A stretch of DNA of 64,000 bases, from NCBI GenBank assembly GCA_017512175.1, contig JAFWHA010000017.1, forward strand, positions 62,001 through 126,000, in the 5' to 3' direction. The notes beneath the pieces are model-generated. The model had not been told where the DNA came from and searched no databases. It saw only the letters and a list, made by a program, of their open reading frames with translations. The position numbers and the translations under genes were made by a program. Shown here piece by piece: positions 15,304 to 56,734 of the stretch (positions are counted from its first letter, which is position 1; every line of letters starts with the position of its first letter). The stretch is from Candidatus Saccharimonadota bacterium. Its GTDB lineage: Bacteria; Patescibacteriota; Saccharimonadia; Saccharimonadales; Saccharimonadaceae.

Positions 15304-16307
15304 ACTTCATCAACACTCGTTAAAATCACTTGATGATTGGAAAAATTTGAAGTAAGGCTTTTTTGGCGGGTTTTATCTAACTCGGAAAAAACATCATCAA
15401 GCAAGACTACTGGTCGTTTTTGTAATTTTTCTTCTATGATTTTAGCTTCAATAAACTTAAGACTTAAGACTATACTTCTAACTTCTCCACGCGAAGCGCT
15501 ACCATCAGCATTCTTACCATTAAATAAAAAGATAAAATCATCTTTATGGATGCCGAAATTAGTATGGCCGACTAATGAATCTCTCTCAAAGTCCATATGT
15601 AGTAGCCTTAAATAATTACTCTCATCAACATTTTCTGTATAGCTATCATATCGTATCTTGGTAACATCTTGATTCTTTGCAATTTCATCATAAGTGTTAG
15701 TAATATCTTTATTAATTAAATTAATTATATCTGAACGATTCTTTCTAATTTCTACACCGTATTTTGCAAGCATAATATCCCAAGAAAAAGTGTCTTCTAA
15801 TGTAACCGATTCTTGTTTTAATAATTCATTCCTCTGCTTCAAAGCTTTATTATATCTAGCTAGCGCCCTAGAATGGTTATCGTTTATTTGACTAATAATA
15901 TTATCAAAGTAATCTCGTCTTTTAAGTGGAGAGGTGGCAACTATATGTAGGTCTTCTGGTAGAAAGAGTACTACTGGATATTTAGCTTCTTTTGGTAATC
16001 TCGTAGTTTTTTTATCCTTACTTAAGAATTTTTTACCATTATCTTCTTGATATAGTACTATAGTTTTTTCTCCACTACTAAATTCTAGTTCTATTCTATA
16101 GAAGTTAGAGTCATGCTTAACAATCTCTTTGTCAGTTGCACGAAAAGATTTACCTTGCATAGCGATATAAATAGCTTCTAGAACGGAAGTTTTTCCGGAA
16201 CCATTCTTGCCAAGAATTAGGGTTGGGTTATCTTTTAGCCTTAAACTATATTTTTCGTGTGAACGGAAATTATTCAGACTAATTTTCTTAATTACATTGC
16301 TATCCAT
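15300..16307 (-). CDS. recF: DNA replication and repair protein RecF
   Basis: 335 residues, close to the usual RecF length. It is an SMC-like ATPase that binds DNA at gaps and helps load RecA. Walker A is LILGKNGSGKTS near residue 35. The signature region is SASRGEVRSIVLSLKF and Walker B is PVVLLDDVFSELD near residue 310. It starts adjacent to the dnaN stop, giving the conserved dnaA-dnaN-recF order on this strand. Confidence 0.93.
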   Translation of the reverse strand: MDSNVIKKISLNNFRSHEKYSLRLKDNPTLILGKNGSGKTSVLEAIYIAMQGKSFRATDKEIVKHDSNFYRIELEFSSGEKTIVLYQEDNGKKFLSKDKKTTRLPKEAKYPVVLFLPEDLHIVATSPLKRRDYFDNIISQINDNHSRALARYNKALKQRNELLKQESVTLEDTFSWDIMLAKYGVEIRKNRSDIINLINKDITNTYDEIAKNQDVTKIRYDSYTENVDESNYLRLLHMDFERDSLVGHTNFGIHKDDFIFLFNGKNADGSASRGEVRSIVLSLKFIEAKIIEEKLQKRPVVLLDDVFSELDKTRQKSLTSNFSNHQVILTSVDEV

Positions 16308-17413
16308 TAATTATCTAGAGGCATAATGATATGCCTATATTTATCATCTTTTTCATTCTTAATAAGGACTGGCGTAGCTTTCTTAGCAAATCCAAAAATT
16401 AGATTTTCCTCATCTAGGGCATTAAGTGCTTCTATTAGGAATCTGGAATCCATTCTAATACTAGCATCTTCAGATACCTCAGCATCGATTTCCGACTTAT
16501 TTTCACCTACTTCATTAGAGATTGACGAAACGATGAATTTGCCGTTTTTGCTATCAGTTGCACAGCAAATAGCACCGTTAGATTCTCTAGCAAAAAGTGA
16601 AGCAATCTTAGCATTCCTAATAAGTTCAGCACGATTAAGAGTCACCTGAATTTCACTTTCACCTGGGAATAATCTCCTATAATCTGGGAAAGTTCCGTCG
16701 ATAAGTTTAGAAGTAATTTCCAATTCACCAATTCTAAATCTAACTTGAGTATCATCAAATAGAAATTCTATAGTGTCAACATCTTCTGGAATAGAACGAA
16801 GCACTTCTTGGAGAGATGATGTAGGAACTATAGCGGCAACTTCACTTTTAACTTTATCGATAAATTTCTTTTCCGCTAATCTATAACCATCAGTGGCAGC
16901 TAGGTAAAGAGCGCCTTTATCCGTGTTGAAATAGATGCCTGTAAGTGCTGGTCTAGTAGTATCTCCAGATGCAGCGATGACAACCTCGGAAGCACCTGCT
17001 TTGAATTCGTCAACACTCATAGAGAAGGCAACAGATTTACTTTCGTCTATTCCTGGAAGTTCTGGAAAATCATCAGCTGGAGCACCATTAATTACAGATG
17101 AGTATTTGGATGCAGTGATTTTTACTTTAGTGCCATCATTTACAATTTTTACCTTTTCTCCTTTTGGAAGATTTTGAACGAATTCAGCTAGAAGTCTAGC
17201 TGGAACTGTAATAATTCCATCTTTTGCGTTTACAACTGGTACGTAGTCTACTACTGCCATGTCGAGATTAGTTGCCGTGAGTGAAACCTTATTATTATCT
17301 GCTTTAATTAATACATTAGATAAAATAGGCAATGTAGATTTTGCGCCTACTGCAACTCTACTTATTACTCCTAGTGCTCTGGCTAGCTTCTCCTGTAAAA
17401 CTTCTATTTCCAT
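16307..17413 (-). CDS. dnaN: DNA polymerase III beta subunit (sliding clamp)
   Basis: 368 residues from ATG 17413. It forms the ring clamp that tethers the replicative polymerase. The N-terminus MEIEVLQEKLARALGVISRVA and the segment LPILSNVLIKADNNKVSLTATNLDMAV are typical, and the C-terminus ends MPLDN. The start is set by AGGAG (17422-17426 on this strand) 8 bases upstream. An in-frame GTG at 17422 overlaps that ribosome-binding site and is less likely. It lies downstream of dnaA across a DnaA-box-rich gap. Confidence 0.93.
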   Translation of the reverse strand: MEIEVLQEKLARALGVISRVAVGAKSTLPILSNVLIKADNNKVSLTATNLDMAVVDYVPVVNAKDGIITVPARLLAEFVQNLPKGEKVKIVNDGTKVKITASKYSSVINGAPADDFPELPGIDESKSVAFSMSVDEFKAGASEVVIAASGDTTRPALTGIYFNTDKGALYLAATDGYRLAEKKFIDKVKSEVAAIVPTSSLQEVLRSIPEDVDTIEFLFDDTQVRFRIGELEITSKLIDGTFPDYRRLFPGESEIQVTLNRAELIRNAKIASLFARESNGAICCATDSKNGKFIVSSISNEVGENKSEIDAEVSEDASIRMDSRFLIEALNALDEENLIFGFAKKATPVLIKNEKDDKYRHIIMPLDN

Positions 17414-17738
17414 GTTGTACACTCCTTTTCTTGGTTAATATTATATATCACTAAAAATTCTTAGTCTATGAACCTTATTATTAATATTAATTATTAAATT
17501 ATTTAATAATAGTAATAATAAGCTATGTGGAAAGTGTGGAAAAAGATCGCTTTTAAGAGATGATTTAGTAGAAATGGACGTGGAAAAAATGTTGGAAAAG
17601 TTGTGTAAGAAAAAGTGGAAAAGCGGAGTTTTACACAAAAACGTTACGAACGAGTAAAAAATGGTTGGTATGGTGGAAAAGATTCCACTGGATTTCCACG
17701 AACTTTTACGCATAGTTTTTCGCAGAGTTTTACACAAG
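17414..17738. other. Probable oriC, dnaA-dnaN side: DnaA-box-like cluster and AT-rich element
   Basis: A 325-bp gene-free gap. The stretch 17436-17520 is almost pure A/T and could be the unwinding element. From 17526 to 17736 there is a run of DnaA-box-like 9-mers: TGTGGAAAG (17526) directly followed by TGTGGAAAA (17535), then CGTGGAAAA (17579), AGTGGAAAA (17614), TTTTACACA (17629), GGTGGAAAA (17672), ATTTCCACG (17692) and TTTTACACA (17728). The canonical TTATCCACA is absent; the preferred form seems to be TTTTCCACA/TGTGGAAAA. Gene order dnaA-dnaN-recF / rpmH-rnpA-yidC is the classical origin context. Confidence 0.75.
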
Positions 17739-19103
17739 TTAAGCATAAATACTCTCCCGAATTGAAGAAATTTGCTCGCGCAAAGCGAAGTCTAGTTTCA
17801 GATCAGCATCAATCTTCTTAATCCCATGCATGACGGTAGTATGGTCTTTTACGCCAACTTCCAGAGCGATCTTAGTGGTGCTCATATTGAGTTCTTTTGA
17901 TAATAGATACATAGCTACTTGTCTAGCAGTTTTAATATGTGCGACCCTGCTTTTACTACACATTTCAGCGACTTTAAGATTATAGAATTTTGCGACGGTT
18001 TCTACGATTTGTTTTGTGCTGATAAGAGAGTGGTTTTTATTGGAGGTTGAATTGGAATAACCATCACTTATTACTTCTAGAGGGGAAATATTTCTAACTT
18101 CTGCCCATGTCATGACTGTTCTATATTCCCGCTCTAAATCACGAATGTTAGTTTTAACACTGTTAGCGATATATTCTATAGCTTCATCTTCGATATCGAT
18201 ATTATCAAATTCCGCCTTCGCTTTTAGAATTGCACATTTATCCTCGAAACTCGGCAGTTGTAAATCATATGCTCCAGCCCAAGCCAATCTAGTAGATAAA
18301 CGTTCATCTAGGGTTTTAATTTCTTCTGGGAGGCGATCTGATGTGACGATGATTTGTTTGTTTTGTTGATAAAGGTCATTAAAGATATTAAAGAAGGCTT
18401 CTTGACTAGCGTCTTTACCCATAATCATTTGAAAATCATCAATAATTAGAACATCTGCTTTTTGATATTTTTTAGAGAACTCCTCACCCTTTTGCTTCTT
18501 GATTAAGTCGATGAATTCGGAAAAGAAATGATTAGTGGAAGTGTATAAAATATTTAGTTCAGGGTTGTTCTTTAAGAGTTCATTACCTATAGCTTGAACA
18601 AGGTGTGTTTTACCAAGACCTGGGCCACCATAAAGGAAGAACGGGTTATATTTCCTGTCACCAGGTTTATTAATTACAGCCTTAGCTACGGCTACGGCGA
18701 GATTATTGTTGGATCCAACAATAAAGTTATCCATAGTATATTCTGGACTAAGACCAGTAACAAAGCTTTTCGCAGCTTGTTTTAGGCTTGGTGTAGTCTT
18801 TTTTACTGTCTTTTTGTTGATTTCATCAACGGATATTTCTCTTGACCTTGGGCGGATACGAGAGGTATTAGATACAATGTATAAAACATCATTAAAATCT
18901 ATGTTGTTATGGGTAAAAGCTTTTCGAATGAGGGAATCATATTTTTTTCTAATTTGGGTTTCCTTGAAGACATTTGGGACTTCAATGGTTATAGTACCAT
19001 TATCTATAGAAATTAACTTTACGTCTGTAAACCAGGTTTGATATTGGTCATGCGGAATAGCTTGTTCTATTTCTGATAAAACATTTTTCCACACATCAAA
19101 CAT
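17739..19103 (-). CDS. dnaA: Chromosomal replication initiator DnaA
   Basis: 454 residues. An N-terminal domain I (WKNVLSEIEQAIPHDQYQTWF) is followed by a linker and the AAA+ domain with Walker A GGPGLGKTHL and Walker B VLIIDDFQMI. The C-terminal DNA-binding domain carries the signature VKDHTTVMHGIKKI. The usual GGRDHTTVLHA is altered to GVKDHTTVMHG, and the usual RPRQ before the recognition helices reads KTARQ. Both changes are in the part that reads the DnaA box, in step with the non-canonical boxes nearby. The ribosome-binding site AAGGAGG lies 10 bases upstream of ATG 19103. Confidence 0.95.
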   Translation of the reverse strand: MFDVWKNVLSEIEQAIPHDQYQTWFTDVKLISIDNGTITIEVPNVFKETQIRKKYDSLIRKAFTHNNIDFNDVLYIVSNTSRIRPRSREISVDEINKKTVKKTTPSLKQAAKSFVTGLSPEYTMDNFIVGSNNNLAVAVAKAVINKPGDRKYNPFFLYGGPGLGKTHLVQAIGNELLKNNPELNILYTSTNHFFSEFIDLIKKQKGEEFSKKYQKADVLIIDDFQMIMGKDASQEAFFNIFNDLYQQNKQIIVTSDRLPEEIKTLDERLSTRLAWAGAYDLQLPSFEDKCAILKAKAEFDNIDIEDEAIEYIANSVKTNIRDLEREYRTVMTWAEVRNISPLEVISDGYSNSTSNKNHSLISTKQIVETVAKFYNLKVAEMCSKSRVAHIKTARQVAMYLLSKELNMSTTKIALEVGVKDHTTVMHGIKKIDADLKLDFALREQISSIRESIYA

Positions 19104-19149
19104 AATGGTATTACCTCCTTATGACCCACCGAAATTTTATCTTATAAGT

Positions 19150-19155
19150 ATTATA
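19150..19155 (-). promoter_or_regulatory. Candidate -10 box of dnaA, with a DnaA box in its -35 region
   Basis: TATAAT on the minus strand. The -35 position (about 19173-19178) falls inside the DnaA-box-like site 19172-19180, so DnaA binding would block this promoter. That would be autoregulation, as known for dnaA elsewhere; here it is inferred from position only. Confidence 0.45.
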
Positions 19156-19165
19156 TATTAAAAAG

Positions 19166-19260
19166 TTAGACTTTTCCACAGCTTTTCGTGAAAATATGAA
19201 ATGTTTTATAATATTTTTTTGAAAAAACAGGGGTATAGTTTTCCACAGGGAAAAGTCTAA
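19166..19260. repeat. 12-bp perfect inverted repeat embracing DnaA boxes
   Basis: TTAGACTTTTCC (19166-19177) and its exact reverse complement GGAAAAGTCTAA (19249-19260), separated by 71 bp. The left arm runs into the DnaA-box-like site at 19172; the right arm lies just after the one at 19239. Confidence 0.6.
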
Positions 19261-19284
19261 ATCTAATAAAATGTGGAAAACTTC

Positions 19285-19313
19285 TTGGCTTTTGTGTAAA
19301 AAAGTGATATACT
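19285..19313 (+). promoter_or_regulatory. Promoter of rpmH
   Basis: TTGGCT (19285-19290), 17-base spacer, TATACT (19308-19313). The start codon is 43 bases downstream. A DnaA-box-like site (19272-19280) sits just upstream and another (19294-19302) is in the spacer. Confidence 0.65.
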
Positions 19314-19356
19314 ATAAAAAGATTTTAAAGATATTAAAACTAATAGGAATGATTTT

Positions 19357-19494
19357 ATGCCAAAACGCACATATCAGCCACATAAGCGTCAACGTAAGGT
19401 TGAGCATGGTTTCATGAAGAGAAATGCGACTAAGAATGGTCGTAAAGTTTTGAAGCGCCGCCGCATTAAAGGACGCGCAAGATTAACTGCTTAG
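19357..19494 (+). CDS. rpmH: 50S ribosomal protein L34
   Basis: 45 residues beginning [19 protein letters not shown], with the family core [17 protein letters not shown] and end RLTA. This is the expected L34 length and pattern, with one extra residue after Met compared with the common MKRTYQPS start. L34 is a small, very basic protein of the large ribosomal subunit. It is next to dnaA, as in most bacteria, but an ABC transporter pair separates it from rnpA. Confidence 0.95.
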
Positions 19495-55537: not shown

Positions 55538-56734
55538 ATGCCAAAAAAAGATTTAAGGGTGGCGTTGGTTTGTGATTGGTTAACTAATGTAGGCGGAGCG
55601 GAGAAAGTACTTTTGGCAATTCATCAGATGTATCCGCAGGCGCCAATTTATACATCAAAATATGACAAAAAGGGAATTGACTGGTTTTTGGATGCGGATG
55701 TAAGAACTGGTTGGCTACAAATTTTTCCAAGTTTTTTAAGAAGGTTTTTAAGTCCACTGAGACAGCATTATTTTTCGCACTTGGATTTATCAGATTATGA
55801 CTTAGTAATTTCGGTAACTGGGGCGGAAGCGAAAGCTGTAAAAACACATAAAGAACAGGGTAAAACCGAACAGAAAACCGTAGATTCCGAACAAACCGAA
55901 CATCGCTCTGTTCACCTCTGTTATTGCCATGTACCAACTCAGTACTACTGGCAGTTATATGATGATTATCTTAAGAATCCGGGTTTTGGAGTATTAAACC
56001 CCTTGGCTAGGATTGCTCTTAAAATCTTTGTGAAGCCGATGCGAAAGAGAGATTACGAGTCTGCGCAGCAGCCTGATTATTTTATTACGATTTCTGATTA
56101 TGCCAAAGAACAGATTAAGAAGTATTACAATAGGGAAGCAAAGGTGATTTATCCGCCGGTGGATGTGGAAAAGTTTTCCACAGACTTATCCACAAGTATG
56201 AAAATAAAAAAGGGAAAAAGTCAAGCGAAAAAACAGCTAAATTATATCATAACTTCTAGGCAAGTCAATTGGAAGCGGATAGACCTTTGTATTAAAGCTT
56301 GTCTTAAGGCTAATCAGAAATTGACGGTAGTGGGAGATGGACCAGAACATAAAAAATTGTTGATGATGGCTGGTAATTCTCCGTTGATTACTTTTTTGCC
56401 ACAAATGTCTCAAGCTGAATTAAAGAAGCAGCTGGAAAAAGCAGATGCTTACCTTTTCCCTAGTTTGGAGCCGTTTGGGATAGCACCGATTGAAGCAATG
56501 GCAATGGGGCTTCCGGTGATTGCTTATGGCAAGGGCGGCGCGGTTGATTATGTGAAGCCCGGAGTTAATGGGTTTTTGTTTGAGCACCAAACGACAGATT
56601 CTTTGGCAGACGCTATGAAACAATTCAACATTGATGATTATTCTAGAGAAAAGATACAAAAAACAGTACTTAAGTTTGATAAAAAAGTGTTTGTAGAAAA
56701 AATGTGGGAGGAGATTAATGAAAAAGTTAAATAA
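55538..56734 (+). CDS. Glycosyltransferase family 4
   Basis: 398 residues. GT-B fold. N-terminal VALVCDWLTNVGGAEKVLLAIHQ. A charged insert at about 105-125 (KTHKEQGKTEQKTVDSEQTE) is followed by YCHVPTQYYW. C-terminal nucleotide-sugar half with SRQVNWKRIDLCI, VVGDGPE, and AYLFPSLEPFGIAPIEAMAMG carrying the EX7E motif. It starts directly after the transferase stop and overlaps the ligase-like gene by 17 bases. Probably adds the second sugar. Confidence 0.88.
   Translation: MPKKDLRVALVCDWLTNVGGAEKVLLAIHQMYPQAPIYTSKYDKKGIDWFLDADVRTGWLQIFPSFLRRFLSPLRQHYFSHLDLSDYDLVISVTGAEAKAVKTHKEQGKTEQKTVDSEQTEHRSVHLCYCHVPTQYYWQLYDDYLKNPGFGVLNPLARIALKIFVKPMRKRDYESAQQPDYFITISDYAKEQIKKYYNREAKVIYPPVDVEKFSTDLSTSMKIKKGKSQAKKQLNYIITSRQVNWKRIDLCIKACLKANQKLTVVGDGPEHKKLLMMAGNSPLITFLPQMSQAELKKQLEKADAYLFPSLEPFGIAPIEAMAMGLPVIAYGKGGAVDYVKPGVNGFLFEHQTTDSLADAMKQFNIDDYSREKIQKTVLKFDKKVFVEKMWEEINEKVK

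Follow-up and report, generated by a model that had tools for sequence, protein, structure and literature searches.

The region rpmH-dnaA-dnaN of this Saccharibacteria genome is, in our assessment, very likely the chromosomal origin of replication (oriC), which is bipartite, possesses a basal unwinding system (BUS), follows the Bacillus/Helicobacter layout and uses the DnaA box that is usual for the lineage. Boxes and DnaA-trios, which are conserved in order, spacing and orientation, were observed directly, as was a step in strand skew. The window analyzed is a stretch of 64,000 nucleotides on contig C11 (positions 62001-126000) in a draft genome (G000) that comprises 611,729 bp in 17 contigs and is 72% complete. 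Among the matches listed, the nearest relatives of its DnaA were from gut 'Candidatus Saccharibacteria' metagenome genomes, many of them from ruminants. The gene order is rpmH(+), dnaA(-) and dnaN(-), which is backed by Pfam; the gene order of Bacillus is also rpmH-dnaA-dnaN. The features identified in and around the two gaps that flank dnaA are as follows (window coordinates).

16307..17422, minus strand: dnaN, sliding clamp (Pfam DNA_pol3_beta, three domains)
17445..17525, no strand: AT-rich element adjoining the trios, 86% A+T, predicted as the likely melting site
17504..17521, plus strand: six DnaA-trios, TAA-TAA-TAG-TAA-TAA-TAA; block conserved across seven aligned loci
17522..17525, no strand: 4-bp spacer separating the proximal box from the trios (sequence and alignment)
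17526..17534, minus strand: proximal DnaA box of the tandem pair, CTTTCCACA (word match and alignment)
17535..17543, minus strand: distal DnaA box of the tandem pair, TTTTCCACA (word match and alignment)
17579..17587, minus strand: box variant TTTTCCACG (word match)
17614..17622, minus strand: box variant TTTTCCACT (word match)
17629..17637, plus strand: box TTTTACACA (word match)
17672..17680, minus strand: box variant TTTTCCACC (word match)
17728..17736, plus strand: box TTTTACACA at the stop end of dnaA (word match)
17739..19103, minus strand: dnaA, 454 aa (Pfam Bac_DnaA, Bac_DnaA_C, DnaA_N)
DnaA residues 390-395: loop IKTARQ (KTARQ, 391-395)
DnaA residues 417-427: helix 5 motif GVKDHTTVMHG (VKDHTTVMHG, 418-427)
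19085..19093, plus strand: TTTTCCACA within the dnaA reading frame, Val-Trp-Lys codons; excluded from the gap recount
19150..19178, minus strand: putative dnaA promoter TGGAAA-17-TATAAT (consensus match only; partly conserved in the alignment)
19172..19180, plus strand: DnaA box TTTTCCACA, rpmH side; invariant in eight aligned loci
19239..19247, plus strand: DnaA box TTTTCCACA, rpmH side; invariant in eight aligned loci
19272..19280, minus strand: DnaA box TTTTCCACA, rpmH side; GTGGAAAAC core invariant in eight aligned loci
19285..19313, plus strand: putative rpmH promoter TTGGCT-17-TATACT (consensus match only)
19293-19301, minus strand: box TTTTACACA within the putative rpmH promoter (word match)
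19357..19494, plus strand: rpmH, ribosomal protein L34 (Pfam Ribosomal_L34)

The original prediction had described TTTTCCACA-type words on both sides of dnaA and no TTATNCACA in the gaps, and the recount agreed. Exact TTTTCCACA occurred five times inside 17414-19356, at 17535(-), 19085(+), 19172(+), 19239(+) and 19272(-), together with three copies of TTTTACACA and several one-base variants, while no TTATCCACA was present between these positions. Genome-wide, there were 15 copies of TTTTCCACA in the 611,729 bp, of which the five at 17535-19280 amount to a third in 0.3% of the genome. Thus, the equal density across the genome that would have spoken against the prediction was not observed. With the rate taken from outside the region, the probability of at least five copies in 1,746 bp was ~1.6e-10, and that of at least four, with the copy internal to dnaA excluded, was 2.7e-8. 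This internal copy, at 19085, is probably coding sequence and not a box. Because it sits in the Val-Trp-Lys codons of dnaA, the counts for the two gaps proper drop to seven TTTTNCACA, four of which are TTTTCCACA, with 0 TTATNCACA; leaving out 30 bases of dnaA coding sequence from the recount did not change the outcome. The 46 genome-wide matches of TTTTNCACA included eight at the dnaA region, and a reversed control pattern had nine genome-wide matches.

In a count free of any motif assumption, TGTGGAAAA was the most frequent 9-mer of the gaps and was contained in all 38 loci examined (the window, 36 other Saccharibacteria and one other Patescibacterium), which, with the clustering in this genome, supports TTTTCCACA as the working box. 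The explanation that AT-rich gaps hold TTTTCCACA-like words by chance has a negligible probability. Both gaps are indeed AT-rich, but TTATNCACA, which is alike in composition, was found 0 times in them vs. 13 times in the genome, the box was the top 9-mer without being sought, and the conservation of the boxes among aligned relatives already refutes chance. TTTTCCACA falls under TTWTNCACA, the consensus in E. coli, and is usual in cyanobacteria; sites of this general type are enriched at oriC, with the seven TTTTNCACA in the two gaps.

By its sequence, the dnaN side carries a textbook BUS at 17504-17543, in which six trios are separated by a 4-bp spacer from tandem boxes. Read along dnaA from 17543 down to 17504, the order is TTTTCCACA, CTTTCCACA, 4 bp and six TTA/CTA triplets, which are TAA/TAG on the opposite strand. 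The trio was defined as 5'-TA(A/G)-3' (PMC5742627, in the section drawn on). Published BUSs are described, in the available part of PMC8287927, as having tandem boxes of which the better one is distal and separated from the trios by 10-13 bp, and A as the middle base of the trios. At this locus, DnaA boxes lie no more than 16 bp from at least three NAN trios, as expected for a BUS, and a 30-base block at 17483 is 97% A+T. In the seven-locus alignment, the proximal box and the trios are almost constant while their surroundings drift. At least three strict trios beside a box were found in 32 of the 38 loci vs. 1.7% of shuffled controls, and at least four in 19 of the 38 vs. 0.1%.

When the survey was extended to 143 Saccharibacteria loci, 66 had at least three strict trios on the dnaN side, all 66 in a single orientation, vs. 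one of the 143 gaps on the rpmH side, the shuffles of this survey being a weak control since they destroyed the boxes along with the trios. The spacers between box and trios in the 66 detected loci were 4 (18 loci), 10 (4), 12 (6), 13 (35) and 14 bp (3); thus, orientation and spacing are fixed and conserved among the detected loci, as a BUS would have them. Under the strict rule, the remaining 77 loci, which included eight of the 50 with a derived DnaA loop, lacked three strict trios. The BUS with its six trios supports the prediction that the dnaN side is the likely melting site, and this BUS, together with the boxes clustered to either side of dnaA, does the same for the bipartite oriC.

Homology with characterized origins suggests that DnaA binding, filament growth, unwinding, looping and autoregulation take place at this locus. 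From the tandem boxes at 17526-17543, bound DnaA would start an ATP-DnaA filament, which would extend onto the TA(A/G) trio strand at 17504-17521 and open the AT-rich stretch toward dnaN. The remaining boxes on the dnaN side and those on the rpmH side would raise the local amount of DnaA, and the same boxes probably also regulate the promoters of dnaA and rpmH. The -35 element of the putative dnaA promoter overlaps the box at 19172. All promoter calls are consensus matches only, of which 12 were observed vs. 9.4 expected.

The overlap of boxes with putative promoters would also suit a purely regulatory role, in which the boxes act on dnaA and rpmH only and replication begins elsewhere, as would the raw GC skew of C11, which has no minimum at dnaA and stays above zero to the left and right of it along 186 kb. 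We regard such a role as very improbable, given the BUS on the dnaN side and the strand composition of this and related genomes. Skew was analyzed in four genomes with long contigs (G000, G014, G012, and G223) and, for the complete genome G079, in 20 sampled stretches. Raw GC skew in G012 was negative on both sides of dnaA. A skew minimum elsewhere had been named as an observation against the origin, and on its face the raw skew provided it; therefore, skew at third codon positions (GC3 skew) was computed per gene strand. In each of the four genomes, this corrected GC3 skew climbed from left to right across dnaA for plus-strand and minus-strand genes alike. In C11, the best single step was at 81,529 (range 77,303-83,265), with dnaA at ~80,400, and ranked first of 137 places. 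The best step of G014 was at 446,847, with dnaA at 447,500, and that of G223 was at 253,970, with dnaA at 252,900 (first of 283 places). G012 had its best step at 111,920, which is 53 kb from dnaA (165,400), with a wide range of 108,899-168,373 that takes in dnaA. None of 200 permutations matched the observed step fit in any of the four genomes. Moreover, the plus-strand coding fraction rises at dnaA in the four genomes, the raw skew of G223 flips sign at dnaA, and that of G079, where dnaA is at 728 kb, flips between the sampled stretches at 720 kb and 765 kb.

The switch in strand composition expected at an oriC is thus present in C11 as the corrected GC3 step and not as a raw minimum, so that the objection from skew stands for the raw values and falls for the corrected ones. 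Given the corrected GC3 steps and the sign changes in G223 and G079, the replication origin is very probably located at dnaA. Raw cumulative skew, which lacks the minimum at dnaA, was dropped as an origin locator for these genomes. Used alone, it would put the origin of some of them in the wrong place, which matters for metagenome-based estimates of replication rate.

The offset in strand composition around the origin is an odder observation than the origin itself. In C11 of G000 (1-186000), C3 of G014 (L070-L089) and C3 of G012 (L090-L108), GC3 skew is offset with the same sign to the left and right of oriC; third positions on one strand are rich in G (or C) regardless of gene strand, and the step is at dnaA. 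Thus, a contig-wide offset is superimposed on the origin signal in three of the four contigs. A similar disparity over whole chromosomes in some Microgenomates was read as mostly one-directional replication in the portion of PMC7143001 consulted. By analogy, most of the chromosome might be copied one way from this origin, with the terminus close by or replication unidirectional, which we consider rather unlikely. If true, one-directional copying would start from an otherwise normal BUS module.

The altered protein motifs noted earlier, KTARQ at 391-395 and VKDHTTVMHG at 418-427, are present in DnaA as described. They had been taken to indicate that TTTTCCACA and the altered loop and helix co-evolved, with a changed preference at the third base of the box. 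The E. coli protein reads the 5' TTA through Arg399, which lies in the minor groove, and TnCACA through its recognition helix (PMC5742627, in the part used here). As the third base is outside the half of the box that the recognition helix reads, VKDHTTVMHG is ill-placed for a third-base change, whereas KTARQ, which aligns with E. coli 398-402, is at a fitting place for it. In alignments, however, position 399 varies, being R in E. coli, F in B. subtilis, Q in M. tuberculosis and E in Aquifex. TTTTCCACA is a natural box of E. coli, R5/mioC (excerpt of PMC5835720), and the usual box of cyanobacteria (excerpt of PMC4674748). Therefore, no special reader is needed for it.

Co-evolution was assessed with the 143 Saccharibacteria loci, which are part of the listed DnaA-bearing genomes, on a tree built on DnaA domains I-III. 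Loci with fewer than three countable boxes were omitted from the regressions, which reduced the 143 to 128 in the first run, 125 and 115 in the repeats and 125 in the column scan. Of the 62 loci first collected as DnaA relatives, the non-Saccharibacteria L045-L067, outside the 143, were used for the loop and helix comparison across Patescibacteria and the DnaA alignment, and L068 and L069, which are partial matches, were left out. Third-base counts in the 143 loci were A27 T269 G4 C9 with derived (non-PR) loops vs. A111 T204 G57 C20 with PRQ loops, and the two-class phylogenetic regression gave p = 0.036, with 0.0275 and 0.0341 in the repeats. These values favor co-evolution, as does the position of the loop at the place of R399. 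With full Brownian signal imposed, however, the same regression gave p = 0.18. Parsimony required only five changes of loop class, one of which accounted for 43 of the 50 tips, and it is in this 43-tip clade that loop change and T-only boxes coincide. PRQ lineages inside the 62-tip clade were already T-dominant (15 loci, A14 T59), such as L238 (0:7), L247 (0:7), and L251 (1:7). Thus, the shift of the box to T seems to have preceded the loop change. In other Patescibacteria, too, gaps with TTTT only go along with a loop and a helix of the ordinary kind (L176, L044, and L128).

When all variable DnaA columns were tested alike with correction for kinship, the loop columns ranked 130, 169, and 245 of 393 as predictors of the third base, and columns with p below 0.05 made up 17% in domain IV vs. 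28% in domains I-III. The association between loop and third base is therefore about equal to what relatedness alone yields; once shared ancestry was allowed for, reader residues did not predict the third base, the two-class test being weakly positive (p ~0.03). The proposed co-evolution is thus improbable, and the fixed T is a narrowing of the box at the level of the clade, for which no special DnaA mutation is required. In the related Saccharibacteria loci L241 and L251 (RDWTT) and L247 (KDWTT), whose boxes are T-dominant, the His of DHTT in helix 5 is replaced by Trp; this His contacts DNA in E. coli.

Box words were also found elsewhere. Three box-like words, two TTTTCCACA and one TTATCCACA, lie within 31 bp at 56164-56194. 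This second cluster was rejected as a titration site, as it is inside a glycosyltransferase gene (55538-56734) and box pairs are also present in similar genes of L296, L297, and L304; its words are probably codon-driven. Single or paired TTTTCCACA at L302:1824-1855, L303:1661-1692 and L311:1487 (G012, G013, and G001, respectively) are upstream of one type of gene, which we take from the start of the protein to be rsmH/mraW-like, making them a candidate DnaA-controlled cell-division promoter. A tandem TTTTCCACA pair at L300:1752-1771 (G010) is directly upstream of a gene that is presumably groEL-like. In G000, G013, and G014, TTTTCCACA is by genes for small secreted-protein-like products (L305:1522, L310:1492, L313:575 and G014:C3 183389-185752, L071), upstream of or between MSKSTKIIAALGLAAG-type genes, and the G014 copies fall within repeats GTTTTCCACAGAGAGG. 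Among the matches listed, three of 145 sampled Patescibacteria genomes had no DnaA match at E <= 0.001 (G015, G134, and G137), of which G137 consists of one contig and is listed as 99% complete.

Searches of the openly licensed literature gave no description of DnaA boxes or trios for Saccharibacteria; for Peribacteria, another CPR group, DnaA-box-like sequences near a skew-defined origin are mentioned (PMC4736985, in the passage available). Similar to the locus of this study, the epsilonproteobacterial oriC1-dnaA-oriC2 has clusters flanking dnaA and unwinding in the dnaA-dnaN gap, and the T that is fixed at position 5 of its box was tentatively tied to the N-terminus of helix 5 (PMC5043019, as far as excerpted). 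Different from epsilonproteobacteria, this lineage fixes T at position 3, for which no specific protein link was found. The oriCs of Synechococcus, Anabaena and Cyanothece use the same box, TTTTCCACA, which in Cyanothece was bound in vitro by domain IV of the cognate DnaA (PMC4674748, same excerpt). Cyanobacteria are, however, an unrelated lineage, and the likeness concerns the box. Finally, the published BUS has, like the one predicted at this locus, an unwinding region between dnaA and dnaN, a fixed box orientation, tandem boxes, a short spacer and 5'-TA(A/G)-3' trios on one strand, to judge from the parts of PMC6669920, PMC8287927 and PMC5742627 considered; the third base of its box is A, whereas that of this locus is T. 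Our results place and dissect the oriC of rumen Saccharibacteria and add this branch of the Patescibacteria to the lineages with a BUS plan.
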